Assembly: GCA_949710005.1 (NCBI GenBank)
Contig: OX453276.1
Coordinates: 3,811,201-3,875,200 of the forward strand
Source: Ricordea florida
Lineage: Eukaryota; Cnidaria; Anthozoa; Corallimorpharia; Ricordeidae
Length of the DNA: 64,000 bases
Reading direction: 5' to 3'
In this document: positions 12,246 to 33,030 of the stretch, piece by piece
Position numbering within the stretch: position 1 is the stretch's first letter
How the letters are laid out: the number at the start of each line of letters is the position of its first letter
Notes under the pieces: generated by a model
Seen by the model: the letters and a program-made list of their open reading frames with translations, nothing else
Told to the model about the DNA's origin: nothing
Databases searched by the model: none
Translations under genes and position numbers: made by a program

Positions 12246-12446
12246 AGTATGATGGAGGAAAAATACCCGGATTTTCTTTTTTTCTTTTTTTCAGAAAATT
12301 ATCAGAAAATTTATCAAGGAATTTATCATGTATTTTAGATTTTTCATCATTATTTTATCAGAGATTTATCAGAAATTTTATCAGAGATTTTATCAGAGAT
12401 TTCAGAAAAAAAAAAATGAATTTGAATATTGGTTTAAAGAAATATA
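12246..12446 (+). repeat. Polinton left terminal inverted repeat (201 bp)
   Basis: Mirrors 33017-33217 with few differences. The inner half is a run of TTTATCAGA(A/G)A-type units. The innermost 30 bp contain TTTAAAGAAATATA, 15-28 nt before the first gene's ATG, so the repeat carries a promoter-like motif for both end genes. Confidence 0.9.
12433..12443 (+). promoter_or_regulatory. TTTAAAGA motif for the left-end gene
   Basis: TTTAAAGAAAT ends 17 nt before the ATG at 12461 and lies within the left TIR. Confidence 0.5.
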
Positions 12447-12460
12447 TTTTAATATTAAAA

Positions 12461-13087
12461 ATGGAACGGCTAACAGTAAAAGAATTGAAGGTTATTGCTA
12501 AAGAATTGGGTGTTAAAAGATATTCTCAAATGCTTAAAACAGAACTCAGAGAAGCTATAAAACAAGCACAAACACCAACCATTAATATTGTTGAAAAATC
12601 TACCCCTAAAAACCTCAAACAACCTATTAATAAATTATTTGAAAATCTAAATGTGGAACACATGAGAGCTATAGCTAAAGAGAAGGGTATTAAAAAATAT
12701 TATTGGATGACTAGACCTGAATTGATTGAAGAGTTAGGTGATATAGACATAGACTCAAACAAATTATCGAATATTATTGATGAAATAATAACACCAACAA
12801 AAAAGTATGAGTGTATTCATGGAAGTTTTAAATATCAATGCAAAGAGTGTCATGGATCACAAATATGCCCCCATAATCAAAGGAAATCGCGTTGTAAAGA
12901 ATGTAACGGTGGTAGTATTTGTGAGCATAAACGGGAGAGGTATATGTGTAAAGACTGTAAAGGTAAAGGAATATGTATTCATCGAAAACAAAGAAGTTTT
13001 TGTAAGTTATGTGGAGGATCTCAAATATGTGAACACAACAAACAGAAGGCGTATTGTAAAAAATGTCACACAACACAAGATACATAA
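12461..13087 (+). CDS. SAP-like domain / five-fold CxH-C-C repeat protein (208 aa)
   Basis: I chose the ATG at 12461 because the N-terminus then aligns with the N-terminus of PolB at the opposite end and lies just inside the TIR; an in-frame ATG at 12416 falls within the TIR. Residues 1-35 (LTVKELKVIAKELG..SQMLKTELREAI) and about 62-92 (NVEHMRAIAKEKG..TRPELIEEL) are two copies of a SAP/Rho-N-like helix-turn-helix often used to bind nucleic acid. Residues 118-202 are five repeats of C-x-H-x6-C-x2-C, each offset by exactly 18 residues (first Cys at 118, 136, 154, 172, 190), probably five small zinc sites. From memory, similar Cys/His repeats occur in proteins of large DNA viruses. The function is unknown; a nucleic-acid-binding early protein is an inference. 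Confidence 0.8.
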   Translation: MERLTVKELKVIAKELGVKRYSQMLKTELREAIKQAQTPTINIVEKSTPKNLKQPINKLFENLNVEHMRAIAKEKGIKKYYWMTRPELIEELGDIDIDSNKLSNIIDEIITPTKKYECIHGSFKYQCKECHGSQICPHNQRKSRCKECNGGSICEHKRERYMCKDCKGKGICIHRKQRSFCKLCGGSQICEHNKQKAYCKKCHTTQDT

Positions 13088-13136
13088 CAAAAAATTAAGT
13101 TATATAACGCAAGTCAGTGTTACATAACAAAAAAAT

Positions 13137-13772
13137 TTATCTAAATCTTAAACTTAAAGTTATGGGAGAACCCTTCAGATCAAGTTTTTTCCATTCAATG
13201 TCTAAGATGCTTAAATCGAAGTGGTTTATGAGACTCTCATATTTTTGAACTGGAATTATTGGATAATCCTGTGAGGGTATGTTAGCAAGTAGGTGTGATG
13301 GTGAGAGTTTAACAAGTTCTCCATATTTGGTGTTATTCATATATGACGACTTATTATCTACTATACTACACATAAGTCTCAGTGGTTCCTTAATCTGTAT
13401 ATTTATGGGGTATAATTTACCAGGATTTATGATTTCAGGCACCCCTAAACCAACTTGTAGCCCTCTCGTAAGTTTAATGTTGGAGATCTTATTGGAATAT
13501 AGATAGTCAACAGTATCAGTCTCAATGATTGTTATCTTTGTTCTATCAATATCATTAAGAAAGATCGATTGGATATTACGCAGTGAATATGTACCAGGAT
13601 GTATTAACATGAGGGGTTGATTCTTATCATTGAATAATATCTGTTCATCCTTGAAATTAATAAATTTTTTGGTTTTTATATTACAATCCAGGAGTTGTAT
13701 CTCCCGAAGATTTTCCAGTGGAGGATCCAAATACACCCTAGTTTCAGACTCATACATGGTGATGCTCAACAT
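13137..13772 (-). CDS. Beta-rich Polinton protein, candidate minor capsid protein (211 aa)
   Basis: Mostly alternating hydrophobic strands, with the N-terminal motif TRVYLDPPLENLREIQLL, a PGTYSLRNI turn, and the C-terminal pattern LSILDIEWKKLDLKGSPITL. A shorter paralogue lies at 16305-16691. In Polintons a single-jelly-roll minor capsid (penton) protein is expected alongside the major capsid protein, and this is my best candidate on strand content and position. No catalytic motif is seen. The assignment is an inference; a structure prediction would settle it. Confidence 0.6.
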   Translation of the reverse strand: MLSITMYESETRVYLDPPLENLREIQLLDCNIKTKKFINFKDEQILFNDKNQPLMLIHPGTYSLRNIQSIFLNDIDRTKITIIETDTVDYLYSNKISNIKLTRGLQVGLGVPEIINPGKLYPINIQIKEPLRLMCSIVDNKSSYMNNTKYGELVKLSPSHLLANIPSQDYPIIPVQKYESLINHFDLSILDIEWKKLDLKGSPITLSLRFR

Positions 13773-13790
13773 TTTGTTTGATTACTCCAT

Positions 13791-13803
13791 ATTCATCTTT
13801 AAA
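13791..13803 (-). promoter_or_regulatory. TTTAAAGA motif upstream of 13137-13772
   Basis: TTTAAAGATGAAT on the minus strand, ending 18 nt before the ATG. Confidence 0.5.
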
Positions 13804-14043
13804 TTTCTATAATCAGCATCTGAGAGGAATCGAGCCTTAACAAAAACAAAATTTGCATTGACGTAATCACATTCCTGAGCGACGTTAGAAACCAGCCTTT
13901 TTAAAGTAAACATAAAATCTACTTTTCAACTTCAAATCCACTTTCCAACTTGCTTGTTGCTATGTCGTAAAAGTATGTAATCTATTGTTCTACACGTGAA
14001 CACTAATTTACAAACAATGATAATCACGTGAAATGGTCATGAA
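13804..14043. other. Intergenic stretch in the Polinton
   Basis: About 240 bp between two minus-strand genes, longer than elsewhere in the element. No gene is seen. Confidence 0.4.
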
Positions 14044-15594: not shown

Positions 15595-15620
15595 CTTATT
15601 ATTTACGTTGATAATAGGAT

Positions 15621-15629
15621 GCTTTTAAA
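15621..15629 (-). promoter_or_regulatory. TTTAAAAGC motif upstream of 14044-15594
   Basis: A variant of the element-wide motif, ending 26 nt before the ATG at 15594. Confidence 0.4.
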
Positions 15630-15697
15630 TCAACACCGTTCTTTTCTAATACCAGCATAACAATTCCATCCTACAGGAGTTCTCTCAAATGACATTT

Positions 15698-16294: not shown

Positions 16295-16304
16295 ATTTTA
16301 CTGA

Positions 16305-16691
16305 TCAACACGATATCTTTAAATAAATTCGAACAGGTTTGTTATTCAAGTCAACCTTTTTTCCATTTTCATCTAAAAGCAATAAAGTAAAGTAGTTGAC
16401 TGGATTTTTGTTTTTTGGAACTCTTAAACAAGTATTATTTGGAGATGGAATAACAGATAGTAGTTGTGAGGGTTTAAGTTCTATATTTTCACCGCTTGGG
16501 ATTATATTGGAATATGAAGACTTTGGCTCTATAATATCACACATTAAGTAGAAAGGCTTGTCATACCGTGCTATATTCGTGTAGATAAATATCAATTGTA
16601 TCTCTTTTACATTGGTTAAGGGTGGATCTAGATAAATTCTTGTTTCAGGAGTTAGCATAGTGATATATAGAAAAATTTTATCATTCTTCAT
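16305..16691 (-). CDS. Short paralogue of the beta-rich protein (128 aa)
   Basis: The N-terminus (TRIYLDPPLTNVKEIQLI) and C-terminal half (LMCDIIEPKSSYSN..IELKPSQLLSVIPS..VDLNNKPVRIYLKI) match the 211-aa protein at 13137-13772. About 85 central residues of that protein are missing. It could be a functional small relative or an internally deleted duplicate. The start at 16691 is favoured because a TTTAAA motif lies 20-32 nt upstream; Met12 (16658) is an alternative. Confidence 0.65.
   Translation of the reverse strand: MKNDKIFLYITMLTPETRIYLDPPLTNVKEIQLIFIYTNIARYDKPFYLMCDIIEPKSSYSNIIPSGENIELKPSQLLSVIPSPNNTCLRVPKNKNPVNYFTLLLLDENGKKVDLNNKPVRIYLKISC
16311..16323 (-). promoter_or_regulatory. TTTAAAGA motif upstream of 15698-16294
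   Basis: TTTAAAGATATCG on the minus strand, ending about 16 nt before the ATG. Confidence 0.5.
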
Positions 16692-16702
16692 GTTTTTTTT
16701 AC

Positions 16703-17665
16703 TTATCTACTCTTCTTTTTAAATTGTTCCACAAAATATAGAACCACAGCCACTATCAACAACCAAGCATTCTTACCTAAAAATCCAATAACCTCACCCG
16801 CTGTTTTGAAAAGAAAGCTTACGATAGCTCCAACCATTCCAGGTAATATTTCACCAAGTTTCTTACCAATAGTTTTCAACCCATTACCAACACCTTTACC
16901 CAATTTGGTTAGACCTTTAGAAAGATTAGAAACGATAACACCAATAACCACACCTACAGCACTTACAACAGCAAAGACTGTAAAACCGTACTTTTTGAAG
17001 ATAGCCTTCACACGATCACGTAATGACATATTTTGAAGTACCCCTTCAGTCTCACTCTCCAGATTGTCTTTATAATTCTTCAGCTCAGCATTTTCTCTCT
17101 TTAGAGTCTCTGTTCGGCTACGTGTTTCTGGAGTCTTCAGCGGATTATCCTCGTGGAATTTTATTTCCTTATTATTTTTGGTGATTGATTCTTCTATCTT
17201 AGCCATTTTAACATAATTATCTTCAACAACTTTTTCTGCTCTAGGACCTAAAATTTTTTTGATTGTAGGTGGTAATTCTTTACTTTTACCTTTTAATGGT
17301 TTTAATTCACCATCTATAAGAACATAATCAGCTGCATTTCCTCTTATTAAATTAAAAACTAATCTTTTTATTCCACCTCCAATATCTTTGTAGCGTATTA
17401 TTAATTTTGAAGTGTCTGCACGTGGATAGTTCTTTTTGAGTTCTTTTTCAGCCTCATTTTTATCTCTCATTCTATTATATATCAAGGGATCAGTTTCACG
17501 ACCATCAAACGAGGTTTCCTCCTCATAATCAGGGTCAGTTGGAATAGTGGTGGATGTCTTTGCGGGTGGAGTCATATAAAATGTTTCATTCTTATCATCA
17601 CCACCTAGATCAGCTGGTCCAAATTCTGGTATTTCTTTGTCTGGTATTTCTCCGCCTTCTGCCAT
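16703..17665 (-). CDS. Coiled-coil protein with C-terminal amphipathic and membrane helices (320 aa)
   Basis: An acidic disordered N-terminus (1-60) is followed by a module resembling the start of the 516-aa protein (NYPRADTSKLIIRYKDIGGGIK). A coiled coil follows (about 150-210), then a hydrophobic segment (TVFAVVSAVGVVIGVIVS) and a cationic amphipathic stretch (LTKLGKGVGNGLKTIGKKLG). The protein ends in two more hydrophobic segments and a basic tail (FKKKSR). The cationic-amphipathic part looks membrane-lytic, a feature reported for small virion proteins of adintovirus-type Polintons and adenoviruses. The specific role is inferred. Confidence 0.65.
   Translation of the reverse strand: MAEGGEIPDKEIPEFGPADLGGDDKNETFYMTPPAKTSTTIPTDPDYEEETSFDGRETDPLIYNRMRDKNEAEKELKKNYPRADTSKLIIRYKDIGGGIKRLVFNLIRGNAADYVLIDGELKPLKGKSKELPPTIKKILGPRAEKVVEDNYVKMAKIEESITKNNKEIKFHEDNPLKTPETRSRTETLKRENAELKNYKDNLESETEGVLQNMSLRDRVKAIFKKYGFTVFAVVSAVGVVIGVIVSNLSKGLTKLGKGVGNGLKTIGKKLGEILPGMVGAIVSFLFKTAGEVIGFLGKNAWLLIVAVVLYFVEQFKKKSR
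16711..16723 (-). promoter_or_regulatory. TTTAAAAAGA motif upstream of 16305-16691
   Basis: A variant with two extra A residues, ending 19 nt before the ATG at 16691. It overlaps the end of the next upstream gene. Confidence 0.35.
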
Positions 17666-17685
17666 AATTTTTTACTTTTCAGTAA

Positions 17686-17697
17686 GAAATCTTTAAA
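17686..17697 (-). promoter_or_regulatory. TTTAAAGATTTC motif upstream of 16703-17665
   Basis: One of the best matches to the consensus, ending about 20 nt before the ATG. Confidence 0.5.
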
Positions 17698-17713: not shown

Positions 17714-18106
17714 CTAAAATAATTTACTAACCATATATCCCAATGCCAGCATACCACCACCTACATATACCATCTCACCCATCTTTTGATTGTCACTAGG
17801 TCTATAATAATCAGAGAATTTTGGTTCATGTGTCTGACTATACAATTTCAAAGCTTCATCTGTATTCGAAATATTTTTTGAAGCCTGATATTTAGCATCC
17901 TTCTGTTTAGAGTACCAATCAATGAGATTCTGTCTGTTTTCCTGATATTTTGCATAATCTTTTTGATATTTTTCTATTGCCTTGTCGTGTCGTATTCGTT
18001 CTGCATCTGTTTTATCACCTGAGAGATATTTTGCAAGATATGATCCACCAACAAAGGTAGTAGCATTCAAAATAGCTCCACCAACCATCATTGCTATTGC
18101 TGCCAT
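17714..18106 (-). CDS. Small protein with hydrophobic ends and a helical middle (130 aa)
   Basis: An N-terminal hydrophobic segment (MAAIAMMVGGAILNATTFVGG) is followed by a charged helical middle (KAIEKYQKDYAKYQENRQNL). The C-terminal hydrophobic segment is YVGGGMLALGYMV. This layout suggests a membrane or internal virion protein. The family is not formally identified. It overlaps no neighbour and follows the same strand as the rest of the cluster. Confidence 0.65.
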   Translation of the reverse strand: MAAIAMMVGGAILNATTFVGGSYLAKYLSGDKTDAERIRHDKAIEKYQKDYAKYQENRQNLIDWYSKQKDAKYQASKNISNTDEALKLYSQTHEPKFSDYYRPSDNQKMGEMVYVGGGMLALGYMVSKLF

Positions 18107-18112
18107 AAATCT

Positions 18113-18331
18113 TTAATTTGGTAAAATCTTTTGATCCTCTAAATATGTTTTTAGGTACATACTACCGGATAGGACAGCGACCCATTTAGCATAGTTTGTA
18201 ATACTTGAGGAGGGATCGTTCATAAATGATTCTTTCAGAGCCTTTTTAGCTACATATCCAACTCCAGCTGCTAATCCGATAAGGACTGCTGAATCATTAA
18301 CAGTTTTCACAAGTTTGTTTTCAGTTGACAT
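18113..18331 (-). CDS. Small two-helix membrane protein (72 aa)
   Basis: Two hydrophobic segments (AVLIGLAAGVGYVA and YAKWVAVLSGSMYL) are joined by a short polar loop. It is packed 6 bp from the next gene, and the upstream motif at 18351-18363 supports it as real. Function unknown. Confidence 0.55.
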   Translation of the reverse strand: MSTENKLVKTVNDSAVLIGLAAGVGYVAKKALKESFMNDPSSSITNYAKWVAVLSGSMYLKTYLEDQKILPN

Positions 18332-18350: not shown

Positions 18351-18363
18351 GAAAACCTTTAAA
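18351..18363 (-). promoter_or_regulatory. TTTAAAGG motif upstream of 18113-18331
   Basis: TTTAAAGGTTTTC on the minus strand, ending 19 nt before the ATG. Confidence 0.45.
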
Positions 18364-18816: not shown

Positions 18817-18827
18817 GAATCTTTAAA
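18817..18827 (-). promoter_or_regulatory. TTTAAAGATTC motif upstream of 18373-18792
   Basis: A perfect consensus match, ending 24 nt before the ATG. It sits directly against the stop codon of the upstream gene. Confidence 0.55.
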
Positions 18828-19367: not shown

Positions 19368-19379
19368 GATTCTTTTAAA
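19368..19379 (-). promoter_or_regulatory. TTTAAAAGAATC motif overlapping the ATPase stop codon
   Basis: The TAA stop of the ATPase gene (19375-19377) lies inside the motif, so promoter and upstream coding end share bases. The motif ends 24 nt before the next ATG at 19343. Confidence 0.5.
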
Positions 19380-20001
19380 TCACCGCGGGAATCTCTAAAT
19401 AACATTGGAATGGATAACGTAAACATAAACAGAGTCTCGAATATTTTTCAGTTTTCAGTAGTTCTACAAATTTTTTACATGTTTCAGAGTCTAAATCACC
19501 TCCATAATCTTCGAAAAGCATCTTCATACCTTTCTGTGATGGATTATGGAATGTAACAACACAAGCTACATTTTCACGGAATGGTTTTGCTATGGATGTT
19601 AATTGCTGAGTGAGAACCCATACTGATAATCCATGATGTCTTCCAGAGAATGCTAGATCTATAAACTTGTTCGATCGTTTCTTTAGATCATTCGAAACAG
19701 CACAATCGTCTAAAATTATTAGTGTATTTGTACCGGAGAACGAAGTTTGACAATCAGTTAACAATTCATTAATCTCATCAATGTTACTAGCATCTGGTGA
19801 TAATACAAAGAAACGTTTATCTCCGTGAGCAAATTTATGATAGGTTTTATTTTTAGAAAAAGTCGGACATATTAGAACAATGTATTCAAACACTTTTCGG
19901 AATGGTCCTCTTAGCTGATCTATTATGTACTTTGTCTTTCCACAATTTGTTGGACCTGTTATAATGCAATGAAAAGGAACTTTATCTCGTAATTCTTCCA
20001 T
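19375..20001 (-). CDS. ATP: Polinton packaging ATPase, FtsK/HerA-type (208 aa)
   Basis: A P-loop ATPase of the A32-like group that pumps DNA into capsids in Polintons and large DNA viruses. Walker A is GPTNCGKT (residues 16-23) and Walker B is TLIILDDC (93-100, Asp98/Asp99). Downstream, VLTQQLTSIAKPFREN supplies the Gln/Arg region typical of these motors. The length is normal for Polinton ATPases. It lies directly after the C-terminal part of the capsid gene, on the same strand. No damage is seen. Confidence 0.9.
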   Translation of the reverse strand: MEELRDKVPFHCIITGPTNCGKTKYIIDQLRGPFRKVFEYIVLICPTFSKNKTYHKFAHGDKRFFVLSPDASNIDEINELLTDCQTSFSGTNTLIILDDCAVSNDLKKRSNKFIDLAFSGRHHGLSVWVLTQQLTSIAKPFRENVACVVTFHNPSQKGMKMLFEDYGGDLDSETCKKFVELLKTEKYSRLCLCLRYPFQCYLEIPAVI

Positions 20002-20381: not shown

Positions 20382-20404
20382 CGTCACTAGACCAAAAGCC
20401 ACAT

Positions 20405-20630
20405 TTTAATCACATTTAAGTTGCATTAAACAACCCTAGAACTTGGGTCTACATTTAAGTTTAGTTTAATTGTTTAAAACATCACTTAAATCAATGCTAT
20501 TGTCATAGTGGGGTTTAAGTGCCCCTGAAACATACATTATACACCTGAAGCCATTTAAGTTCCTTAAATGGAGATTAAACATTCTCTAAATTAATGGTTG
20601 TGTTTTGGTTCACATAAATGACTATTTATT
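20405..20630. repeat. Left subterminal repeats of the CACTA element
   Basis: At least seven TTTAAG/CTTAAA-type hexamers in both orientations, a density not seen elsewhere in the window. Such repeats bind the element's own accessory protein in plant CACTA elements. Confidence 0.7.
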
Positions 20631-21449
20631 GATATATAACAGGAATAGTAAGAATTATAATTGTCCAGTGTGTAACATCACTGTGCACTTCATTGCTCAA
20701 GTATCTTCAAATTGTCTCTTTTCTCCATAACAGAATCAGAACACCAAAACATGAAAGCAACGTAAAAATGTCTTGACATTTTGAACTCAGTTCAATAAAA
20801 AAGTAATATAATTTTAAAAAAATATCATCAAGAAGAAAAATGACCATATTTCACTAATCACACTAAGACAAGTGTATTAAGAAACTTTAATTTTATCCGT
20901 ATATGTAGTTTCCATGTCCACAGTCATGTACCCTTATTAGCTTATGCATCAAAATTTTGATACAGTGTATATATGTTGTCAAGTAACCACAATGTACAAA
21001 TGTGTCAATCTCCAAATCGAAAGACAATGTAAGATGGAACAGAACGATATTTTTACACTTACACAACATTTGCATCAACATTAACACCTGATCTAACAAG
21101 TAGCATATGACAATTTGCAAAAGTGGTGTGAACTGTCAATCAAAAGTAGTCATTTGTATATGCACTTTCCTATGTACCAATTTATTTCAGCTGGTTAAAC
21201 CTAAGTTTGTATGCAATCCGTAGTGCCACAGTACTGTTAAGAAAATACTGGTGCCTTCAGAACTCAAATACTGTCCAGTCATATCATAATAAAAATTATT
21301 TTTTCAGAGAAAAAAAGAGAAATAAGGAGAACGTTTGCTTCAATGATACAGTCTCTTCTTAGCTAAGAACCCTATCAATGATTTAATCTAAATCTGTAAA
21401 ATGCCAGCACGACGAGGTATAGGGCAAACTGCCATAAGTTTGGCATTAC

Positions 21450-21644
21450 CTAGAGAAAGATAAGCTGCAGTAAAGAGGCTGTGGATTCTGTGCACTTTAG
21501 CGATTGAGATGAACATTTCGTTTTTGTGTGACGGCGATACGAAGATGAATGTGCGAAGGACTTTCCGCAAGTTTCACACTTATCACAGAAGAAAGGGCTT
21601 GGAGTGTTTTCGACGAAACTTGTTTCAGGATAATCTTCGGCCAT
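21450..21644 (-). CDS. Possible first exon with one C2H2 zinc finger
   Basis: From an ATG at 21644 the minus strand encodes MAEDYPETSF followed by CETCGKSFAHSSSYRRHTKTKC, a single C2H2-type finger (C-x2-C-x12-H-x3-H/C). The reading ends in low-quality sequence and may be spliced. Further left (about 21070-21120) the minus strand has an ankyrin-like string (HMLLVRSGVNVDA) next to a GTAAG donor, possibly another exon or a decayed one. It diverges from the gene at 21927 across a ~280-bp shared upstream region. Confidence 0.35.
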   Translation of the reverse strand: MAEDYPETSFVENTPSPFFCDKCETCGKSFAHSSSYRRHTKTKCSSQSLKCTESTASLLQLIFL

Positions 21645-21926
21645 TTTGTTGATTATCAAAGACGGAAACCGCAATCGGTAATGATTGATTTGCGTCACGA
21701 GCCATGAATGGCCCTATTGTTATCCCAAGCAATTTGCATTTGGTTTTTCTGCTTCATTGCAATTGGTTGGTTTTCGATAGTAAGCCAATCAGAAAGTGAG
21801 AGTGTCGGTCGCGGGATGTATGTTTCATGTAGTTAGCGTCATTTAGAAGTTCGCATTCCAGCTTCGTTCCTTGCCGTGTGCTCGCTCGTGTTTTACAGTT
21901 AGTTACACTTCACTTTTCCGGTAACG

Positions 21927-22160
21927 ATGACTGCACTAGGTGCTCAACAGGAACGACAGCTTCTTCTGATTGAAAGGATGAGCGGTAAAATGGATGCGAT
22001 TTGCGACAGTCAAAAGAGACTCCAGGATGCCAATGCAAGCCTGCGACAGGAGAACGAAAGACTAAGAGACGAATTACAAAAGAAGGAGAAGCAGGGCAAC
22101 CGACGTGGTTTGAGAAATTCACGGCGGAGTTCTACAGTTGAAATTCCAAATGAACTAAGG
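21927..22160 (+). CDS. CACTA cargo gene, exon 1 (coiled coil)
   Basis: First exon of a 295-aa protein encoded by five exons with clean GT-AG introns: 21927-22160, 23091-23161, 23896-23999, 24174-24283, 25568-25936. Summed coding length is 888 nt with matching phases (0, 2, 1, 0). This exon gives a leucine/glutamate-rich coiled coil (RLQDANASLRQENERLRDEL, about residues 32-51) and a basic Ser/Arg patch before the GTGAGT donor. I do not recognise the family. By position it could be the accessory DNA-binding protein of the transposon; this is inference. Confidence 0.7.
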
Positions 22161-22195
22161 GTGAGTAGATCTTTTTGTTTTCGTGGAGCAACTTC

Positions 22196-22310
22196 AGAAT
22201 ACCCGTCCACTCATTTACATGTGTCGGGGGCTTTTGAAGAACGAGGTATATCACAATGGACTCTTTTGTTATTCATCAGTATGTAAATAAGTGGACGGGT
22301 ATTCTGGAGT
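22196..22310. repeat. Small fold-back in intron 1 of the cargo gene
   Basis: AGAATACCCGTCCACT at the left is mirrored by AGTGGACGGGTATTCT at the right. Confidence 0.7.
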
Positions 22311-22704
22311 CTGACGCCATTTCATTTACTTCTTTTTGTTGAAGCAAAACATTGTATGCTAGATGAATTCGAAGTAAAAAGACGAGTACCTATTATTATT
22401 AGTTAGTATACCTATTACTTCGTGTGTGGGCGCATGAAGCTCGAACGTGGTGGTGAGTTAACTTTAGTGTGGGGACGAAGTGACTGGTTTTCAATTTGCA
22501 TCGTGTACTCAAGCCACAGCTGTGCGTGTATGAGGGCCATGAGACGGCGATCTTTTCAGTTTTGTTGAAAATCTTTTCAATCTTAGCTTCAGTAAAGATC
22601 TTTTAATCAAAGATTTTAATCTCCTCAAAAACCACAAAAACTCAAGTTCATTTCTTAATATAATTATGCCCCGTACTCATTGCACTTGTTTAGAGAGGGC
22701 TTTG

Positions 22705-22860
22705 CGGTAAGATTTCCGCACAGGTCCCTACTTCATTATGCATTCTGTAACTATACTATTTCGTTCTTCGAACACAAGAAATATTTGCACGTGAATTACA
22801 CCAGACAAGACAGCTTCCGCATGCATAATGAGTAGGGACCTGTGCGGAAATCATTCCGCG
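22705..22860. repeat. Fold-back in intron 1 of the cargo gene
   Basis: GATTTCCGCACAGGTCCCTA with ATTATGCAT is mirrored at about 22822-22853. The outer, weaker arms extend further. Confidence 0.7.
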
Positions 22861-23090
22861 CGACTACACCAGGAATAATGAAGTATGGGGTTTAATAGGG
22901 AATTCTTGCCCTTTTTACAGTGTTTGATTCGATATCTGAGAAGCAGTCTAGTAATACAGGAAAGTGGTTGCATTATCTTCCTTATGCGCGACAATATGTA
23001 ATTAGCATCGTGAGGAGCAGTTGTTCCGACCTGTAACCTCAAAAACTTCATTAATTCTTGCACTGATTTTGTATTATCACGCTCTTGCAG

Positions 23091-23161
23091 AAACGGTTTC
23101 GATTTATTTACAAGAAGTTGGTGGAAAAGAAGATGTTAAAGGGCTTCATTGTTGATGAGGA
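23091..23161 (+). CDS. CACTA cargo gene, exon 2
   Basis: Basic helix KRFRFIYKKLVEKKMLKGF. Acceptor CTCTTGCAG and donor GTATGT. It enters in phase 0 and leaves two bases. Confidence 0.6.
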
Positions 23162-23895
23162 GTATGTATTCAATTTCCTTTTACATTATCAGAGCCATGA
23201 TCAGTAATTTAGAGATGAACCAAGGCACTTTCCTTTGTCATTTTTTCCTTATTTCCTGTACAACATTTAACATGCTATTGTTTTAAATTTAGTGGAAATT
23301 GGGATCTTGATGACTTCTGGGGCTATATAAAACACAGAATGTTTGTAAAATAATACTGATCCCATTGCTGTCATCATAAACACCCCAATTATTTAGAAAT
23401 AGAATTTAACCAATTTACATTGCCTCATTTTTTTCTGGTTACATTCTTGGTTGTAGATATAAACACTGAGGACATTTCCTTATTTCCAAATAATTTGACT
23501 CAAGAGTGCGGTGGTGGGCATGTATTTTAAGGTGCTCGGTATTCAGCGATAAATTGTCTAAACAACACTAGTACTTATAACTGGTCTGGGAGCTCTACTA
23601 CTACAGCAAATGAGAAACATGCTGATGCTGGAGCTGGCTACTTAAATTAGTGGTCCTAGCTGGTGGTGTCCACTATAGGTTTATTAGAATTTGTCCATGC
23701 ACAAGCGTATAGGTTGTTTTGAGTTTTTGTTGGGTAGGCATTTGTAGAACCGGCTGCTTATGGAAATTTCCATGGGAACCTATATTCCAGAGAGTTAATG
23801 TTATGTGCTCCACTTAAAGCACAGTCTGTGATGATTGTATTGCATGACCTTAAGTTTTGTTAAATAATTTTAAATATGCTGTTTTTTCTTTTAAG

Positions 23896-23999
23896 TCCAT
23901 CGTCTGAGGGAAACCAGATTGTTTTTACCCAAATTAAAGAAATTTTGAGGAAAGAACATGGTGGCGAAAACTGTCCTTGGACTGAATTACAAATGGAAG
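23896..23999 (+). CDS. CACTA cargo gene, exon 3
   Basis: Encodes EGNQIVFTQIKEILRKEHGG and CPWTELQME. Acceptor TTTTAAG and donor GTTTGT. Phases match exons 2 and 4. Confidence 0.6.
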
Positions 24000-24173
24000 G
24001 TTTGTACATTATTTTATTCTGTTCAAAGCTTATTGAGAGATAATATTGTGTGGTGCAAATGTCTTTGTTGAATCAAAACCCAAAGTGTTTTAAAACTGTA
24101 GGATTCCATTTTATATAAATCCTAGGGAGCACGATTTATTTGATATAATTGTTAATTGATAATTTTTCAACAG

Positions 24174-24283
24174 CCCAGTTTTGTCGCTATTTCACTACAA
24201 TACGGGAAAGGGACTTGAGGATCAGGACAGGCAAAAATAAAGAACACAAAGAAAAATGCAAAAAGAACAGACGGCTGTTAACT
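24174..24283 (+). CDS. CACTA cargo gene, exon 4
   Basis: Encodes FCRYFTTIRERDLRIRTGKN then a Lys-rich stretch, a likely nucleic-acid-binding or nuclear-targeting region. Acceptor TTTCAACAG and donor GTGAGT. Confidence 0.6.
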
Positions 24284-25049
24284 GTGAGTCTAGAAATATA
24301 TTCATTTAATTGATTATTGCATTTTGTAGTAATTATAATTTGTGTGTCAAATTGTTTTAACCATAAAAATGTATCTATTGAGCTGAGGGCTGATAGTTCC
24401 TTTGTCTGAACAATTTGCATTTTGATCCTACTGGGATGTTCAAATGTCCTGCCTGTTTCCATGCTTATAACAGTGTGCACGTAATGTATGGTTCTGAGGG
24501 AAAGTTTCATGAGAGTCCTGATGTTTCCTGAGATGAAGTCGAGGGAAACTTTAGGACCCAGAGGAAAACAAAACTAATCGTTATATACCTAGACTTTCAC
24601 TCAACAAAATGAGCACTGTGATTGGTCGATTGTTGATCACATGCCCCCGATCAAATTTAAATGTGTATTACAGGAAAAATTAACAAAGATGATACAACTG
24701 GCACACAGACAAAATTCTAATATTTGGATTTATGTTTTGATATTTAGACGCTTATGGTACCGTAGATATGAATTTTTTTGACTAGCTTTTATATTATAAA
24801 GATTAAGAAAAGTTGGAGAATTCGGACTTCTTAAAGTTCTTATTATTTAAATTTTCAACCCTGCTTTCAGAAATTATCACAAAAAAATATGCAATATAGC
24901 AAACAGGTTATTCTTACCCTTGGACTCTCAATGTTTGACAAGTAAATAATTATCCTTGGTATATTTACACATTTGTTGGTTTGGAGAATTTTGTAGGTTA
25001 ATTCAGTATTAAAGTGTTGATAATTGTAATGATGTTTATGATATGATGC

Positions 25050-25076
25050 TTAACCCTTTCACTCCCAAGAGTGACT

Positions 25077-25121
<45 letters not shown>

Positions 25122-25190
25122 ATGGAGACCCCTTGGGAGTGAAAGGGTTAAAAACTATCTCCCTTAACCCTTTCACTCCCAAGAGTGACT

Positions 25191-25235
<45 letters not shown>

Positions 25236-25265
25236 ATGGAGACCCCTTGGGAGTGAAAGGGTTAA
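25050..25265. repeat. Two tandem 102-bp MITEs
   Basis: Copies at 25050-25151 and 25164-25265 are identical as far as I can see, each bounded by TTAACCCTTTCACTCCCAAG and its complement. They sit in intron 4 of the cargo gene. A TTAA target site is possible. The open frame through both is an artefact. Confidence 0.85.
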
Positions 25266-25567
25266 TGATGATATGATATTAATGTCAGCTGCATTGCCAT
25301 AAATTTTCTATCTTATCAAAAAGCTCCTTATAACTTTTAGAGTCAGGGGGTTGGGTAAAAATGAATCACAAACTCATACAATTGAAGGAGTATTAATTGA
25401 ACCTTGGATTAAGCACCTAGAGTGAATCAGGCTTTTTTTTCTTTGCTTTGAGCAATTATTGTTTTTTTCAATGTAGCAATCATCATTTCCTCTTGTACTT
25501 CTTCTTATGACTTAACTTGCAGCTTCCTTTATTTATTCTCAATTGATTTAATATCATTCTCTGTTAG

Positions 25568-25936
25568 AAACTGGAAAGACGGAATCGTGCATTTGAGTTG
25601 GTTCAATCAAGCATGACAGCAACACAACGGCAGTGTGCTAGTGAGGTCCTGTTTATTGACTACATGAGCAGTGAGGAGTCAGATTATGATGAGATAGAGG
25701 ACCCCATTACAGGAGAAAAGCAGAGAAAACTTGCAAGATACCATAAAAAAAGGTTGCCATGGGAAAGGTCAAGCCTAAAAAACTTGAAACAAAAGTTGGA
25801 TCGCGCATACCATGACAGCCTGTCATTGCATGCTAGAGCCATGTCCAAGGCCAGAGAGGTGCATGGTGTGTCAACAAGACCAGCACCTGAAGGTCCAGCT
25901 TGGGCTGTTAGACAGATTGATACTGTTTATTCTTAG
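25568..25936 (+). CDS. CACTA cargo gene, exon 5 (last)
   Basis: The final 122 codons plus a TAG stop at 25934-25936. It has RRNRAFELVQ, an acidic patch (SSEESDYDEIED) and a Lys/Arg-rich segment (RYHKKRLPWERSSLKNLKQ). It is in phase with exon 4, and a possible AATAAA signal follows at 26111. The intact multi-exon frame in an insertion that breaks a viral-type gene suggests the CACTA copy arrived relatively recently. Confidence 0.7.
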   Translation, partial: KLERRNRAFELVQSSMTATQRQCASEVLFIDYMSSEESDYDEIEDPITGEKQRKLARYHKKRLPWERSSLKNLKQKLDRAYHDSLSLHARAMSKAREVHGVSTRPAPEGPAWAVRQIDTVYS

Positions 25937-26339
25937 GCCAATGGATCTCATGCTACTTTAAATGAGACCTTTTTTTCACACAGCAGACAATTGGCTCTAC
26001 TGTAAAAAATGCTACCAAAAAAGCAGTGTACTTTTAGATATTTTTAGTCACAACATTGTGAAACATTTTTCATATGTAAAGATTTATGACATGTAGGTCT
26101 TACTTAATTGAATAAAAAAAATGTTTTTCTTAATAAAAGGTATTTTTAATATAATCAAACAAGTGTACTGCAAGTGTTGGGTGGGTTTGCTGCAAAGCAA
26201 CAACAACTAAGACAACAGCAAATGAAATATACACTGTACATGTAACGACCAAGTAAAAAACACCACTGTTTATGAAGGAATACATTTGGTGGGTGACTTA
26301 AAACATGCTTATGAAATGAATATGGCCAAAAAGATATAG

Positions 26340-26640
26340 TTGAACCCTCTAAAATTAAATATAATTATGATCATTTAATTACCCTAAAACATGACTTTTA
26401 CACACATTTAGAATGTGTTTAAGTTTCTAATTAAACATAACGTAAACGTCAGAAGATATTTTGGTTGTATTTAATGCTCACTTAAACATACATTAAGCTT
26501 TAGCCTTAAGGGTGTTTAAGGCGGGTTTAAGGTGAAATTAAACATATTTTTAAGTTCTTAAACCTCTAATTAAATGTAGTAAACATAAGTTTAAGCCAAG
26601 ATTAATTTCAGTTTAAGTCTGCTTAAATGTTCTTTTTCTC
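26340..26640. repeat. Right subterminal repeats of the CACTA element
   Basis: More than ten TTTAAG/CTTAAA/TTTAATT units in both orientations, mirroring the left end. Confidence 0.7.
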
Positions 26641-26646
26641 CTTGTG

Positions 26647-27509
26647 CGTGCTCCTCCACCGTATGGTATTGTAAACAAACATAATATCCCTGTCATTGAC
26701 CTCCTAGGTAGATTAATATGCTGGTTTATAACACTGTCAGAAGGTCTGGATATTGTGAAAGTTTTGTGTAGAGTGACATTCTCGTAAAAGAATCCTTTAC
26801 CAACCTGATAAGCTGACTGTGCCTCACGAGCTAAGTATTCGCTTGATATGCAAGAATATTCCAACTCAAGGTTTGTGATTTTGTAAGTTGGAGGCTTGGT
26901 CGTGTCAGAATAAACAACAATATCATAAACTGGAGCCAGTGTAATCTCAAAGATTAGTTGATGATCTAACGCCTTTGGATAGAAAACCCCATGATCGTTG
27001 AGAATAGGATGATTTAGTGGGATATGGTACTTGGTGTTGTGTACTACTGCAAGAGCTACTTCCTTAGCATCTGTGTCTACCTTATCACCCGCATTTGTCC
27101 TAAGCTTCCTAATGTTTTCTGAAGAAATACCTTGTTTTAATCTATCCTCACGTTCTTCATCTGTTAAGAATAAGTCATGGTATGTTTGAAATAGATCGTA
27201 TCTTTGAGTATCCTGTAGTGTTTCACCACCAAAAAGAACCCTGAGTCTGGATACAAGGTTACTACCTACATTATTAACGAGGGTGTTATCAGCATGACCA
27301 TCAACAGTCAAGTTGAATAGTAGAGATAAACTTCCAGGTACAAGAACTAAATTCTCGGTAAGTTTTGGAATATTTATATATAGTGTTTCTCCAGGATTAG
27401 CTGATGATGGATTTAGTGTAATTCTATTCAATGTTGATTCCGCTTTCAAACCGAGTGGCTCTCTTGGAATCCTGTTTGGATTAATTTCTTCGGATATAGC
27501 TTGTGACAT
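26647..27509 (-). pseudogene. MCP: Major capsid protein, N-terminal part (gene split by CACTA insert)
   Basis: The first ~287 codons of the Polinton double-jelly-roll capsid protein. Recognisable strands are LVPGSLSLLFNLTVDG, NLVSRLRVLFGG and YDLFQTYHDLFLTDEERE near residues 75-140. The second jelly roll begins before the break. The frame runs about 11 codons into the CACTA terminus and stops at 26613, so those residues are transposon-derived. Lengths 863 and 373 nt of the two parts sum to a multiple of three, showing the break is a simple insertion with a 3-bp duplication. Without both jelly rolls a capsid is not expected to form. Confidence 0.9.
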
Positions 27510-27533
27510 ATTTTATTTTAAGGATGGGTGAAG

Positions 27534-27544
27534 TATTCTTTAAA
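27534..27544 (-). promoter_or_regulatory. TTTAAAGAATA motif upstream of the capsid gene
   Basis: Ends 24 nt before the capsid ATG and overlaps the first base of the integrase ATG on the other strand. A plus-strand variant (TTTTAAGGATG, about 27517-27527) faces the integrase, so the 34-bp gap may be a compact divergent promoter. Confidence 0.5.
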
Positions 27545-28533
27545 TGAGTAAGGAAAACATGTTATCAAAAATATATTATTCAACTTATGGATATTGGAAA
27601 GGATATTCTGCAATTCCTAAATTAGCTGAGAAAGCAAAAGTTAGTGAAGATGAGGCTAAAAGATGGCTTGAGAAACAGGCTCTATGGCAAATCTATCTAC
27701 CAGCTCCAAAATATATCCCTAGACCACACTGGACTGTGGATAAACCGAATCAGATTCATCAAGCAGATTTATTATTTTTACCACATGATAGAGTTGGAAG
27801 AAAGACTTATCGATATGCTCTGGTTGTGATTGATATAGCTAGTCGATACAAAGATGCTGAACCATTAACATCAAAAGAAAGTCATGAGATATCCAAAGCC
27901 TTCAGTAATATTTACTCTAGAAAGTTAAAATATCCTAAAACATTAATTGTTGATCCTGGAAGAGAATTTATGGGTGATGTGACAAAACTTATGAACATAC
28001 ATAATGTAAACATCCAGAGAAGTGAAGCTGGAAACCATAGAGCTCAAGCATTTGTTGAAAGAGCAAATAGAACATTAAGTGAACGATTATTTAGTCATCA
28101 ATATGCACAAGAAATGATTAGTAATGATCGATCTAGAGTATGGGTGAAACGATTACCAGCTATTTTGAAAACTCTGAATAGTGCACCAACGAGAATAACT
28201 GGTAAAGAGCCTGATAAAGCTATAAAAATGAAAGAGGTTGATATTGATCCTCCAAAATATAAGCGAGTTGTTGGAGTTGATGAGGTGAGGCTGCCGCTTG
28301 GGGTCAGGGTTAGATACTTACTCGCTCCGGGTGAACTTGAGGGTGGTGAACGAAGACGAGCTACGGATCCCATTTGGAGTATTCAGGTTTATGATATATC
28401 ACGTAGTGTGGTTTCATCTAATCAGCCAGTGTTGTATTATTTACTAGATGGACCTAGGCGTGGTTTTGTGAGGGAAGAACTTCAGGTTGTACCAGACGAT
28501 ACTGAGCTGCCGCCTAATTCTGTGATGAAATAA
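27544..28533 (+). CDS. INT: Polinton retrovirus-like integrase (329 aa)
   Basis: DDE-type integrase that inserts the linear element into the host genome. The N-terminal helical region (1-60) lacks a full HHCC zinc motif. The catalytic core runs from WTVDKPNQIHQADLLFL; catalytic residues are Asp75, Asp137 (VDPGREF) and Glu172 (AFVERANR). The C-terminus has an SH3/chromodomain-like tail (LYYLLDGPRRGFVREELQVV, about 295-314). The frame is complete. It starts 34 bp from the divergently transcribed capsid gene. Confidence 0.92.
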   Translation: MSKENMLSKIYYSTYGYWKGYSAIPKLAEKAKVSEDEAKRWLEKQALWQIYLPAPKYIPRPHWTVDKPNQIHQADLLFLPHDRVGRKTYRYALVVIDIASRYKDAEPLTSKESHEISKAFSNIYSRKLKYPKTLIVDPGREFMGDVTKLMNIHNVNIQRSEAGNHRAQAFVERANRTLSERLFSHQYAQEMISNDRSRVWVKRLPAILKTLNSAPTRITGKEPDKAIKMKEVDIDPPKYKRVVGVDEVRLPLGVRVRYLLAPGELEGGERRRATDPIWSIQVYDISRSVVSSNQPVLYYLLDGPRRGFVREELQVVPDDTELPPNSVMK

Positions 28534-28534
28534 G

Positions 28535-31282
28535 CTAATACAAAGGCCGTGTGTGAATTCCGTCGTCTGCCACAATACGTTTATCGTAGTAGGCGTTCAA
28601 TCCTAATTTATTTTGAATGTATGTTACAATTTGATTATTGTTAACTCTAAAGCCGGTATTTTTTACTTTATCTATCGCCCCTTTCAAAGCTTCGAAGTAT
28701 CGATCCCATGTCATATTATTTTGCTTTCTGGTGGTTCCTTTACAACTAAACTTTGTTTTTCCATTCTCGTCTTCAGCGTAATACCATTTTGGTGTAAGAG
28801 CAATCATTCGAGTTCCTTCAAACTCCAGCTTGAACAGACCGGGTGTCTTGTCGTGGTATTTTGAGGTTGATAGGAATTTTTCTTTTCCTCCACTAAAGTA
28901 TTCTTTTTGTAGTTCAGGTTTTATAATCTTATCAAAATTTTTATCCGAAAGACCTATGTAAAAACTATCAGTGTCCATCTGAATAAGTTCGAAATCCCTT
29001 CTATCGAGATATTTATCAAGAAAATCGTAGTAAAATTCCAACATGCGAAGTTTAGCTAATTGATATACCGCGATGCCACATTGATAAGGTCGATTTATGT
29101 TTACCTGACGTTTTCGTTCTTTTATTTCATATGTTTCATTGATGACATCTAAATCTTCAAAGAAAGGACTTCTAAAAGCCTTATCAACCTCCTTCTCGTC
29201 TTTAGTATATCTTGTTTTTGTATGTCTTTCGAGATCTTCGATCATTTTTCCATAGAATGAATTTCCTTTTAGTTTGTAAGTATCGCCCAGTTCTTTGCAA
29301 CCTTCATACTTGGAATTCAGTTTTTCAATCAACACTTGAATGTCTTTGTTCTCTTCAATCAATGGGATTACATCAGGGAATTGCTTCAATTCATTAATAA
29401 TGGTGTTGACATCATCTCTCTTGTTTTCATTAACAGCTTTACGTAAATTTGTGGTCATAACCTCAATATCACCATCTCTTCTAGCGCTACTAACTTCATC
29501 TGGGAACCATTTAAAAGGTCTTCCTGCTTCATATTTTAAAATCTTGTGTATAGCTGTTACCTCTAAGCCATGATTAAGATACCATTTCAGTAGGGGTGTA
29601 TATATCAGGATCTTCTTTGCCTTAGTCACCCCAAGCAATTTTTTAGTACCTTTTAGAGTTTTTCTGCCCGTAGCTTTTTGGTATTCTTTCATATGTTCAG
29701 GGACTAGCTCTTCTGGAACACTGCCTACAACAAACAACGGTGAAAACTCTTCAAATTTTTCTTTGAGATTTTCAGGGACATGGATATCCACTTGACAAAA
29801 ACCAAACACCTTGTCGGTAAGAATATCGTTACACATCTTCTTGATGTATTCGGGATCCGTTGGATTTTCAGCCTCAATGTATTCCTCTTTACCACATGGC
29901 ATTTCTTGACCAGAGCAGTATAGATATAAACCGTTTGCATCATAACCAACTATATACCAACAAGTTTTTGGGTCTTTATATTTATGGGGTCGAATCTTTG
30001 TCTTACCTATATCTGCATAGCGAATAAACACAATACTAGGCCCTCCAACCATACCTGTTTTCAAGAGTTCATAAACCTTGTTTTTTGCGCATTTGGTACA
30101 TTCTTTCCTTATCTTGGAGCACTCTTTACAACCCTTTTTTCTACAATTCTTAGCACATTTATGAAAGCATGGTTTACCAGGAGCATATAAGGCAGGCTCG
30201 TCTCTCTTCTTCATTTTTATGGCTTTATTAAGCACATACATCATTGAGATACCTGGGATAGATACAGCATCTTTTAATATATCAATTTGATCTGGGTAAT
30301 ATTGCTCCCGTGTCTTTTCCAGAGCTTCTACGAAAGGTACAACGTCAGCTAGGTTATACTCCCTCAACCAATCCATCATGGTAACACAACCCCGCTTTTG
30401 GAATTCAATCTTAAATTGTTCATATTCTTCAGGAGACACTGTGATTTTCTGATGTAGGCTTGAGTAAAAGTCTTCAATTTTCACAGGGCCTATGTGAGAA
30501 AGCTTCTCATAACTATCCAACCATTCGTAAGGAAAGACAAGTTTTTGTGCTGCACAATTATTTGCTTTACACCACTTATCAAAAGAGAGCCCGGGGGCTA
30601 AGTAGGACATTGCATCTAAAAATTTAAAATGGTCAGTTGTCAGGAACATATACCTATTCTCTTTCTTTGCCACAAAAATCTGTCCAGCTTGCTCGGCCAT
30701 GGGTTTTATAAAATGTTTTTTAATCATATTGATATCATACTTACCACTATTGAACCCTAAAACAGGAACTTGATTACACCACTTTCTATACTGATCTAGC
30801 ACGTTATTAGGGATAGAATCTTCATCGGGAAGACAGTATTCTTTTACAACTTTTTCTACAATGGATTTCCGACGCTGTTCTAAATCTGTAATAAAGTCTT
30901 TGATAAGCTCTTCAGGGTTTGAATTTACAAGAAAGTTGGGTTCGTTTGTAAAATTATCGTTGATAGTAACACTAACTGGAATATGTTTGTTACTGAAAGT
31001 TAGGTCAGCAGTCATCTGTTGAGAAAGTTTGTATAGCAACGCTTCAAAATCGAAAACAATAAAATATGGGTATGGGGTAAATTTCTTTTCAAGTCTCATA
31101 TCACTTAATTTAGGTTTTTCATGCTCCCAAACCGATACAACATTATAACCCAAGTCTTTGATCGTCTTTTCCATTCCAGGTTTCATTGTATCTCTTTTCA
31201 TTGTAACTTGAACAGGGGCAGCCGTGCCATTTACACCCATAGAATTGAAAAACGGTCTTAGTCTCCGGCTCGTATCCATCAA
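28535..31282 (-). pseudogene. PolB: Polinton DNA polymerase B, C-terminal part (after frameshift)
   Basis: Family B DNA polymerase of the protein-primed type, used to replicate the linear element. Exonuclease motifs: Exo I FDFE (residue ~78), Exo II FNSGKYDIN (~177), Exo III YNLADVVPF (~310). Polymerase motifs: A YDANGLYLY (~445), B KLKGNSFYG (~673), C MDTDSFYIG (~769). A Cys-rich insert (CAKNCRKKGCKECSK, ~380-400) may bind zinc. The catalytic residues seem intact, but the N-terminal third is in a different frame (31143-32993). The first ~35 residues of this open frame are out-of-frame sequence, and its ATG is not the natural start. Confidence 0.9.
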
Positions 31283-32993
31283 CCAAAATCTCCTTTTTAC
31301 CGCTCTTCACACACCGCTCACCCCCATGCCCACAGAGAGCGTGATGAATATGTTTACCTATATGTCTAGACTGTTCTTCAATCCATCGACACCCCATGTA
31401 ACTAAATTGGGTATTACCTCCATAAAACACCTTTTCAGAGCTGGTCATGATGTGTTTGAACTTTTCCCCTTTACATATCAATTGTGTCTTTCCTCCTGAA
31501 CATCTTTTTTCTGTAACGTGTCTATTGTAATTATCATGTCTGTTAAATCTTTGCTGGCATACAGAACATTCCCAGAGTTCAGTTAACAGCTCTATATTCT
31601 TGATGTAAAAACAATGACCTTTATAAAGTCCTATATCTACACATGGTAATTTCGTTTTGAACTGGTCTTTTCCAAAAACTAGTTTCCAAACATTTTGATC
31701 TTTTGGTTCGTAAAGACGGATGTTAACAGAAAACCTCTTGGCAATACCCTCAAAATCAACAAGTTTAGTTGCCCTAACGTCTGAAGGTTTCAATTCTTGG
31801 TTATCATAAAAATCTCGGGCTAGTTTTAGCGCCTTTCTGGTAGTGTCCTCGGCAGGTCTAGATTTCTTATCGCGATACCCCATGTAAATTGCGAGACACC
31901 TCCAGACACATAGATTGTCTTTCTTATCATCTACGGCGTGAATACATTTCTTGTTACGTAACCAATCTGGTAAAGGCCCACACCCCATTAAAGGCTCATT
32001 GCTGTGAATAACTTTTACCTGTATCTCAGTAAACTCAACTCTGCCTTGATATACACCGGGGGTTTCAACTACCTCTGTTGCTGGTAGGTACGCTGTGCTC
32101 CACGCTTCAACATCCTCCAAATCTAACCTTTTGGTCTCACACCTTTCGATATAACCCTCTATTTCAGATAAACTTGTAAAAGTTCCCTCCCCACGAAGTG
32201 TTTTTGGTGGGTAATCAGATATTTCTCCACTCCCACGATGAATTCTAGCCTTAAAACTGTAAACAATCCTTGAACGCATTTCTATGTACGGTTTTAGTTT
32301 GTTAAAAATCATGTTTGATAAGTCATTATTTAGATCAGCATTAACCACGTGGGTATTTGGTTTTGGTGGGATTTGTGCCTCCCTTCCATTCAATTCAGCT
32401 CTCACACTCTCAGATATACTTACCTGTCTTCTAGGTTGGGGTGGCCTGTTATTAGTAAGTTCGGAGATATTTTTATTTATGAGATCCGTAAGTGCTTCAT
32501 CAACAGACTTAACTCGGTCCACCACTTTCAATGTCTGATTCTTTATCCAATTAAACTTGTTGTTCGTTGTTTTGGGGATGGCGTTCGCTAACCGCTTGCC
32601 ACTATCCCAAAAACTAGATACAATATTTTTTCTAGGGGCTGGGATAGGTCTTTGCGGGTGGTTGGGGATATTTTTTCTAGTGGCTGGGATAGGTCTTTGC
32701 GGTTGGTTGGGGATATTTTTTCTAGGAATAGTAACTGGCGGTTTTAGCGGTCTGACTATAAGGGTTGTCGGTGGTCTGCGTTTGGTTGGTGGTGTTGGAA
32801 TCGAATCATCATAGAATATCAGCCTGGGTTCTTGTGCCTGGTTGGGAATCTCTTCAGGTAAGGTGTTTGGTGGTGTGGTGATGCCTATTTCACGCAACGC
32901 TTCTCTGAGTTCTGCTTTACGCATTTTAGATCTTCCTTTAATATTATGCTCTCGAGCAATAGCTTGCAATTCTACAAATTTTAGATTTTCCAT
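31143..32993 (-). pseudogene. PolB: Polinton DNA polymerase B, N-terminal part (before frameshift)
   Basis: Starts at the ATG 24 nt inside the right TIR. Residues 1-37 form a SAP-like domain (FVELQAIAREHNIKGRSKMR). A Pro/Arg-rich linker with near-repeats (RKNIPNQPQRPIPA-type, about 85-130) follows. Further on are an OTU/viral-protease-like or primase-like block (DNLCVWRCLAIYMGYRD), a C2H2 finger (CSVCQQRFNRHDNYNRHV) and an endonuclease-like YGCKWHGCPC motif. The frame is lost near 31167-31170, in a run of four A residues (minus strand), and stops at 31143 after ~8 out-of-frame residues. The downstream polymerase continues in the other frame with no sequence missing, so one-base slippage, an assembly error or programmed frameshifting are all possible. 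Confidence 0.85.
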
Positions 32994-33016
32994 AATTCAA
33001 TTATTAGTACATATTT

Positions 33017-33030
33017 TATATTTCTTTAAA
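33017..33030 (-). promoter_or_regulatory. TTTAAAGA motif upstream of PolB (within right TIR)
   Basis: TTTAAAGAAATATA on the minus strand, ending 23 nt before the PolB ATG at 32993. It mirrors the motif in the left TIR. Confidence 0.5.

Follow-up and report, generated by a model that had tools for sequence, protein, structure and literature searches.

Promoters built of two parts, an upstream core and then a TAAA initiator, are described for the intermediate genes of vaccinia virus, in which the core occupies positions -26 to -13 and a 12-bp spacer, about one helical turn, separates it from TAAA at -1 to +3 (PMC12917281; papers cited here by PMC number are drawn on in part). In the pGKL cytoplasmic linear plasmids of yeast, a conserved upstream element usually lies 20-40 nt before the start codon, transcription starts a median of 11 nt past the extended element, and 12 genes have a TAAAN initiator (PMC6211774). 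Mavirus and the EMALEs, which are Polinton relatives, have a common motif upstream of their genes, TCTA, which is also the late promoter of CroV (PMC8547959). Here we compare with these systems the Polinton (Maverick) found in a stretch of 64,000 nt from the corallimorpharian Ricordea florida (contig OX453276.1, positions 3,811,201 to 3,875,200; hereafter the window, whose own numbering is used throughout). Many Polinton genes appear to have in common a two-part promoter, for which we estimate a probability of roughly 0.78.

In Polintons of this genome too, TAAA stands at a fixed distance from an upstream core, as in the poxvirus intermediate type; the spacer is 11-15 bp, mostly 13-15, against 12 in vaccinia, a comparison that depends on where the end of the core is set. 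The vaccinia core has no fixed sequence, whereas that of the Polinton is a sharp YTTAAAGATT, with a slightly longer spacer (PMC12917281). Unlike in vaccinia, the Polinton has no evident gene for a polymerase, and its capsid and terminal genes share the promoter. The resemblance to pGKL again lies in a conserved upstream element followed by a TAAAN-type initiator, but the plasmid element is ATNTGA, the plasmids have an RNA polymerase and a capping enzyme of their own, and their 5' ends have been mapped, while those of the Polinton are predicted from sequence (PMC6211774). The TCTA of mavirus and the EMALEs differs in that it lies in an AT-rich context, for which the part of the paper used gives no rule of spacing, and in belonging to a protist host with a known helper (PMC8547959). 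Vertebrate Mavericks are of the same element class as ours (PMC8097293); in the main text of that paper the strings TATA, upstream and transcri* are absent, and the word promoter occurs twice, for a host gene and in a reference title. The remark in the initial annotation that no description of such a uniform promoter was known for animal Polintons agrees with the open-licence PMC literature on Polintons, adintoviruses and virophages, in the consulted parts of which we found no promoter motif of animal Polintons. Promoters common to nucleocytoplasmic large DNA viruses (NCLDVs) and virophages have been used as an argument in the debate between nuclear-escape and virophage-first origins (PMC10328495), on which a Polinton promoter also bears. 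Its layout looks nearer to that of a poxvirus than to ordinary animal switches and hints at how Polintons may be read.

Core and TAAA in the window Polinton

Fourteen ATGs of the Polinton were taken as gene starts for the motif counts. All seven exact copies of TTTAAAGA inside the element are on the coding strand and begin 28-37 nt upstream of a gene ATG, seven of the 14 starts being preceded in this way. The shorter TTTAAA begins in the same zone at 11 of the 14 starts, which accounts for 11 of its 24 sites in the Polinton. Close variants are found at four further starts (TTTAAAGG at 18331, TTTAAAAA at 16691 and TTTAAAAG at both 15594 and 19343) and the integrase start has TTTAAGGA at -27; the packaging ATPase start (20001) is without a good site, and that at 18106 has a poor one only. 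Across the whole window the raw count is not enriched, with 10 exact matches against 7.8 expected and 36 one-mismatch 10-mers against 34; this count is ordinary but the placement at gene starts is not, so that the signal is one of position and strand.

Unsupervised expectation-maximisation (EM), under a model of zero or one occurrence per sequence (ZOOPS), gave RTTTAAAGA-like motifs for the 14 upstream 60-mers. The log-likelihood was 62.7, compared with a mean of 36.9 and a maximum of 42.7 for 60 dinucleotide-shuffled sets and a maximum of 36.8 for 60 random sets from the Polinton, although the nulls were run with 60 seeds and 25 iterations against 200 and 40, which somewhat favours the observed value. 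A core threshold was passed at eight of the 14 gene starts and at none of 72 in-frame internal ATGs, 213 out-of-frame ATGs in genes or 1557 ATGs outside the Polinton, the matrix behind it having been trained on the same eight sites. When each site was left out in turn, seven of the eight exceeded all 3000 random zones and 18331 stood at 0.003; the starts at 15594, 16691, 18106, 19343 and 27544 fell at 0.015-0.022, and 20001 at 0.45. The motif reported before these genes is real, with sites at or near the positions first listed, and the EM search recovers it well above shuffled sequence. The sites are as follows.

12433..12442, plus strand: core TTTAAAGAAA of ATG 12461 (Rho_N/SAP gene), at a distance of 28 nt
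12456..12459, plus strand: TAAA initiator-like site of the 12461 gene, offset 23 from the core
13794..13803, minus strand: core TTTAAAGATG of ATG 13772; TAAA absent at the usual spacing
15620..15629, minus strand: variant core TTTAAAAGCA of ATG 15594; TAAA 15605-15602
16314..16323, minus strand: core TTTAAAGATA of ATG 16294; TAAA 16300-16297
16714..16723, minus strand: variant core TTTAAAAAGA of ATG 16691, within the last codons of the upstream gene; TAAA 16701-16698
17688..17697, minus strand: core TTTAAAGATT of ATG 17665; TAAA 17674-17671
18354..18363, minus strand: core TTTAAAGGTT of ATG 18331 (72-aa gene); TAAA 18339-18336
18818..18827, minus strand: core TTTAAAGATT of ATG 18792; TAAA 18802-18799
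19370..19379, minus strand: variant core TTTAAAAGAA of ATG 19343, containing the ATPase stop; TAAA at offset 30, beyond the usual spacing
27535..27544, minus strand: core TTTAAAGAAT of ATG 27509 (major capsid gene); TAAA 27520-27517
27517..27526, plus strand: variant core TTTAAGGATG of ATG 27544 (integrase); TAAATG at 27541
33021..33030, minus strand: core TTTAAAGAAA of ATG 32993 (N-terminal open reading frame, ORF, of the polymerase region); offset 24 has TAA instead of TAAA

When these promoters are aligned on the core, TAAA falls at offset 22-25 in nine of the 12 and the ATG at 27-37; the exceptions are 13772 (no TAAA), 19343 (TAAA at 30) and 32993 (TAA at 24). Head to head, the promoters of the capsid and integrase genes are interleaved, each core overlapping the initiator of the other: the capsid TAAA (27520-27517) shares positions with the integrase core (27517-27526), as does the integrase TAAATG (27541) with the capsid core (27535-27544). 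Both genes beside the terminal inverted repeats (TIRs) have the core, as had been noticed at the outset, in an extension of the 157-bp TIR; the two sites are copies of each other and therefore count as one independent case. Weak versions had been listed at 20021 and about 18108; the ATPase start is without a good site, and that of the 18106 gene has a poor one.

The stop codon seen inside one copy of the motif is that of the ATPase (19377-19375), within the core of the 19343 gene, and the motif often lies just past, or over, an upstream stop. This would also suit a terminator or poly(A) signal that ends or processes the upstream transcript, a reading we consider most improbable: the motif is found as well upstream of the first gene inward of each TIR and of the divergent capsid/integrase pair, places at which no preceding gene comes to an end, and GC-rich hairpins before the core are rare (4 of 96 promoters; 0 of 71 control pieces). 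Poly(A) signals are scattered and uninformative.

Spacing and occurrence of the proposed promoter across the genome

All DNA comparison was made within the same genome, an assembly of 538 Mb in 48 contigs. For the spacing of TAAA, 60 of its loci were used (L010-L069, 30 found by the ATPase and 30 by the promoter pattern), the promoters that had served as bait being removed. TAAA follows 21-26 nt downstream in 49 of 51 distinct TTTAAAGATT cores, with none at 8-20 or 26-28; its distance from the core is nearly constant, while that of the ATG varies. With the looser core TTTAAAG[AG], examined in 68 loci (L010-L077) that include eight stretches from other Polinton copies, the first TAAA comes 11-15 nt after the 10-mer, mostly 13-15, in 82 of 101 distinct cores.

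The arrangement along the promoter is core, TAAA, a short A-rich stretch and the ATG. We propose that the core YTTAAAGATT, with TAAAGA as its conserved heart, would be bound by a factor or polymerase, and that the spacer, mostly 13-15 bp and slightly over one helical turn, would fix the start at TAAA, transcription most likely beginning at its first A. The A-rich run between TAAA and the start codon, being of variable length, would then give each mRNA a leader rich in A and some 3-14 nt long, and every gene with the promoter would have a start site of its own. Promoter function, start site and separate transcripts are predictions from the DNA; if they hold, the two-part promoter gives the mRNA 5' ends of many Polinton genes and, as a 35-bp signature, a means of finding such genes.

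The pattern TTTAAAGATT-N10-14-TAAAA-N0-8-ATG has 3775 matches in the genome, some sites being counted twice where two ATGs or gaps fit, against eight for the reversed control. A spacing of N15-24 gave 1171 matches (control 20), among the first 100 or so of which N15 spacings and capsid promoters containing another TAAAA predominate, and N0-9 gave 185 (control 13), many of the first 100 or so being AT-rich promoters with an additional, later TAAAA. A pattern without TAAA gave 72 matches against 57, an indication that the specificity resides in good part in the second half. Among the first 30 loci with the N10-14 pattern, 28 precede ORFs that match Polinton proteins, 23 of these matches beginning within the first 13 residues of both proteins and one (L059) being only 10 residues long; the other two (L055 and L057) have no protein match and are located in a copy with Polinton genes.

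L070-L077 are eight stretches of other Polinton copies, whose terminal genes have 31-64% identity by BLASTP to those of the window. They keep the core before the 16294, 18331 and 17665-slot genes as well as the capsid and terminal ones, and have it before accessory genes without a match in the window Polinton; the conservation in related elements that had been named as a check is in this way seen, within one genome. Some ORFs that the search pattern misses have TCTAAAGATT instead (L073, L074 and L076). From the core, a uniform promoter with very short leaders had been suggested, on the model of compact large DNA viruses; it fits the 3775 matches and the divergent copies, but its TAAA half had been missed, and with that half added both the likely start site and the system for comparison change.

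The promoter was also counted from protein starts, the upstream sequences being located by protein N-termini rather than by the motif, with bait promoters and loci L002-L009 dropped. The core is present at 27 of 27 starts of the 18792 gene, 7 of 7 for 16294, 23 of 25 for the capsid gene and 20 of 29 for 18331 (the remaining nine with a weaker core), as well as at 4 of 5 for 15594, 2 of 2 each for 17665 and 32993, and 1 of 2 for 12461. In favour of the promoter, copies of the first four of these genes agree in 90-98% of the core and in 68-72% of the spacer.

A number of results weigh against a promoter common to many Polinton genes, beginning with the restriction of all DNA comparison to one genome. 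It is not universal: [TC]TAAAGA is at the right place in 97 of 215 distinct upstream sequences, and core plus TAAA in 87, with a weak core in 61 more; 24 of 898 control ATGs inside genes also have the core. The core is rare at the ATPase (1 of 36), 18106 (4 of 24) and integrase (2 of 17) starts, and is found at 1 of 5 for 13772, 0 of 4 for 16691 and 3 of 30 for 19343, the other 27 being weak variants. The search pattern finds it at 24 of the 56 ORFs listed in L070-L077, and among the 101 TTTAAAG[AG] cores 13 are without TAAA and six have it elsewhere. The difference in identity between core and spacer was computed on core-bearing sequences and is hence inflated, and the four core-bearing 18106 copies show none. 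The copies are moreover kin by descent, some genes having near-identical spacers, and the promoters are not independent. Presence of the promoter is gene-specific within Polintons, and the first description of it as lying before nearly every gene was too wide: TTTAAA is absent from the expected place in all 30 ATPase copies listed, and what is found at 16691, 19343, 18106 and the integrase is a variant or a poor match.

Descent might account for the signal altogether, if one ancestral spacer without function had been spread by gene duplication and conversion and its decay were still incomplete, and the spacers of the 18331, 17665, 18792 and 16294 genes do look alike. We hold this to be very unlikely, in that one and the same core and TAAA distance go with about a dozen dissimilar spacers (of 15 spacer clusters obtained, no fewer than three are artefacts of the search pattern) and the core is retained where the spacer differs.

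Polymerases that may read the proposed promoter

If the two-part promoter is real, its possible readers include host RNA polymerase II (Pol II), acting at an unusual spacing, and an NCLDV-type viral polymerase supplied in trans. A canonical TATA box places the start site 28-33 nt downstream, and Polintons are regarded as nuclear elements. TTTAAAG resembles a TATA box, and Pfam scans show no RNA polymerase gene in the window Polinton. An ordinary Pol II promoter, with TTTAAAG as a TATA-box variant and the start about 28-33 nt past its first base, near or at the ATG, is a possibility to be entertained, if a tentative one. With the ATG most often 32-35 nt from the core, the leader would be a few nt long, and most promoters are compatible with such a start. 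Against it, the constant distance is kept by TAAA and not by the ATG, and of 96 distinct promoter strings 11 have fewer than 30 nt, and four fewer than 28, between the start of the core and the ATG; L044, one of the 11, looks like chance inside a gene, and another, L055, has a second ATG at 30. By distance, the ATG is at 26-27 nt in four strings (one doubtful), where a start at 28-33 would be impossible, and at 28-29 in seven (one doubtful), where it would be tight; the other strings allow it, and the terminal genes of L072-L075 have the ATG at 26. A start at 28-33 would lose the start codon of such genes, so that standard Pol II geometry fits poorly there; the short distances argue against that geometry at these genes, not against Pol II itself.

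It is more doubtful that the promoter is read by the NCLDV/poxvirus-type RNA polymerase of a co-infecting virus, as that of mavirus probably is by CroV, Polintons then behaving like animal virophages. The layout, like that of the vaccinia intermediate promoter and the yeast linear plasmids, speaks for this, as do four Pox_VLTF3-like fragments above the Pfam cut-off in the same genome, against none in 14 control genomes.

C15:18661274, C8:15643102, C12:7234181 and C6:16806129 (own genome, G000): Pox_VLTF3-like fragments, two with stops

The fragments suggest past contact with an NCLDV-like agent and are possible relics of such a virus. On the other side, TAAA is common in AT-rich DNA, no helper with such a promoter was found, and two VLTF3 stretches read upstream are without one; Capsid_NCLDV has no match, a result made uninformative by controls that are silent too. 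In IMG/VR the promoter pattern occurs in at least 120 stretches, with one exact match each in the 80 loci listed; six of these 80 have further relaxed matches, 12 of the 13 not at an ORF start. The IMG/VR locus L128 was set aside, since none of its three relaxed matches is at an ORF start and the ORFs of the contig look phage-like. The VLTF3-like fragments were likewise rejected as a source of the promoter, on three of the four: L078 and L079 have none at the right spacing, nor has any upstream ORF of L200. Unlikely, in our estimation, is the fuller proposal that the promoter of many animal Polinton genes is made for an RNA polymerase of NCLDV/poxvirus type, and that their expression would require infection by a giant-virus-like helper; the very many endogenous copies of this genome would then serve against viruses as a store of the virophage kind, such as has been proposed for protists with mavirus.

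Searches of IMG/VR by capsid, by ATPase (single sequence and alignment) and by polymerase or integrase alignment revealed no relatives of the Polinton, and INPHARED phages gave none; one 24-residue match in a Clostridia bin among GTDB contigs was taken as chance.

The element and its genes

The window holds a single Polinton (12259-33203), bounded by inverted repeats, with TGGTA at both flanks. TIRs (157 nt, 99%) and an rve integrase, A32-type packaging ATPase and capsid protein place it among the Polintons/Mavericks; about ten further genes are present, mostly on the minus strand.

12259..12415, plus strand: left TIR, 157 nt, 99% complementary to the right TIR
33047..33203, minus strand: right TIR, counterpart of the left
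19375..20001, minus strand: packaging ATPase (Pox_A32, 1.5e-12), a gene without a good core
26613..27509, minus strand: major capsid gene, N-terminal part, interrupted by an insert (Pfam scan and relative L040)
27544..28533, plus strand: rve integrase (3.4e-7; 30.9 bits, under the 32.6-bit Pfam cut-off)

The Capsid_N match of the capsid protein is weak (3.8e-4, under the Pfam bit cut-off). An insert of about 6.3 kb (20384-26645) splits the gene, and a relative, the 420-residue open frame of L040, aligns to 27497-26646 and 20383-20012 of the split gene. In the polymerase region (28535-32993) the ORFs 32993-31143 and 31279-28535 overlap and are read in different frames, apparently because of a frameshift. 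No Pfam, PHROG or PDB match of the window proteins names a protein-primed family B DNA polymerase; DANGLYLY, KLKGNSFYGK and QMDTDS, which we take to be family B DNA polymerase motifs, are visible in the translation. A PDB match that would have made a 516-aa protein a relative of designed repeat proteins was rejected.

The Polinton load of the genome is very large, with 5055 ATPase candidates at first look; 150 of them were scored, every one with an identity of 93% or more, and just two are listed with a stop. In another copy, a 191-aa ORF with the promoter (L003:1527-2102) adjoins relatives of the 12461 and 13772 genes, and sequences like the one upstream of it are found repeatedly in the genome, their AT spacers differing in length. 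The TIR-side genes 12461-13087 and 31143-32993 have an N-terminal Rho_N/SAP match in common, followed in the left one (12461-13087) by zinc-finger-like Cys/His repeats. The proteins of 13137-13772 and 16305-16691 share an N-terminal YLDPPL and look like paralogues.

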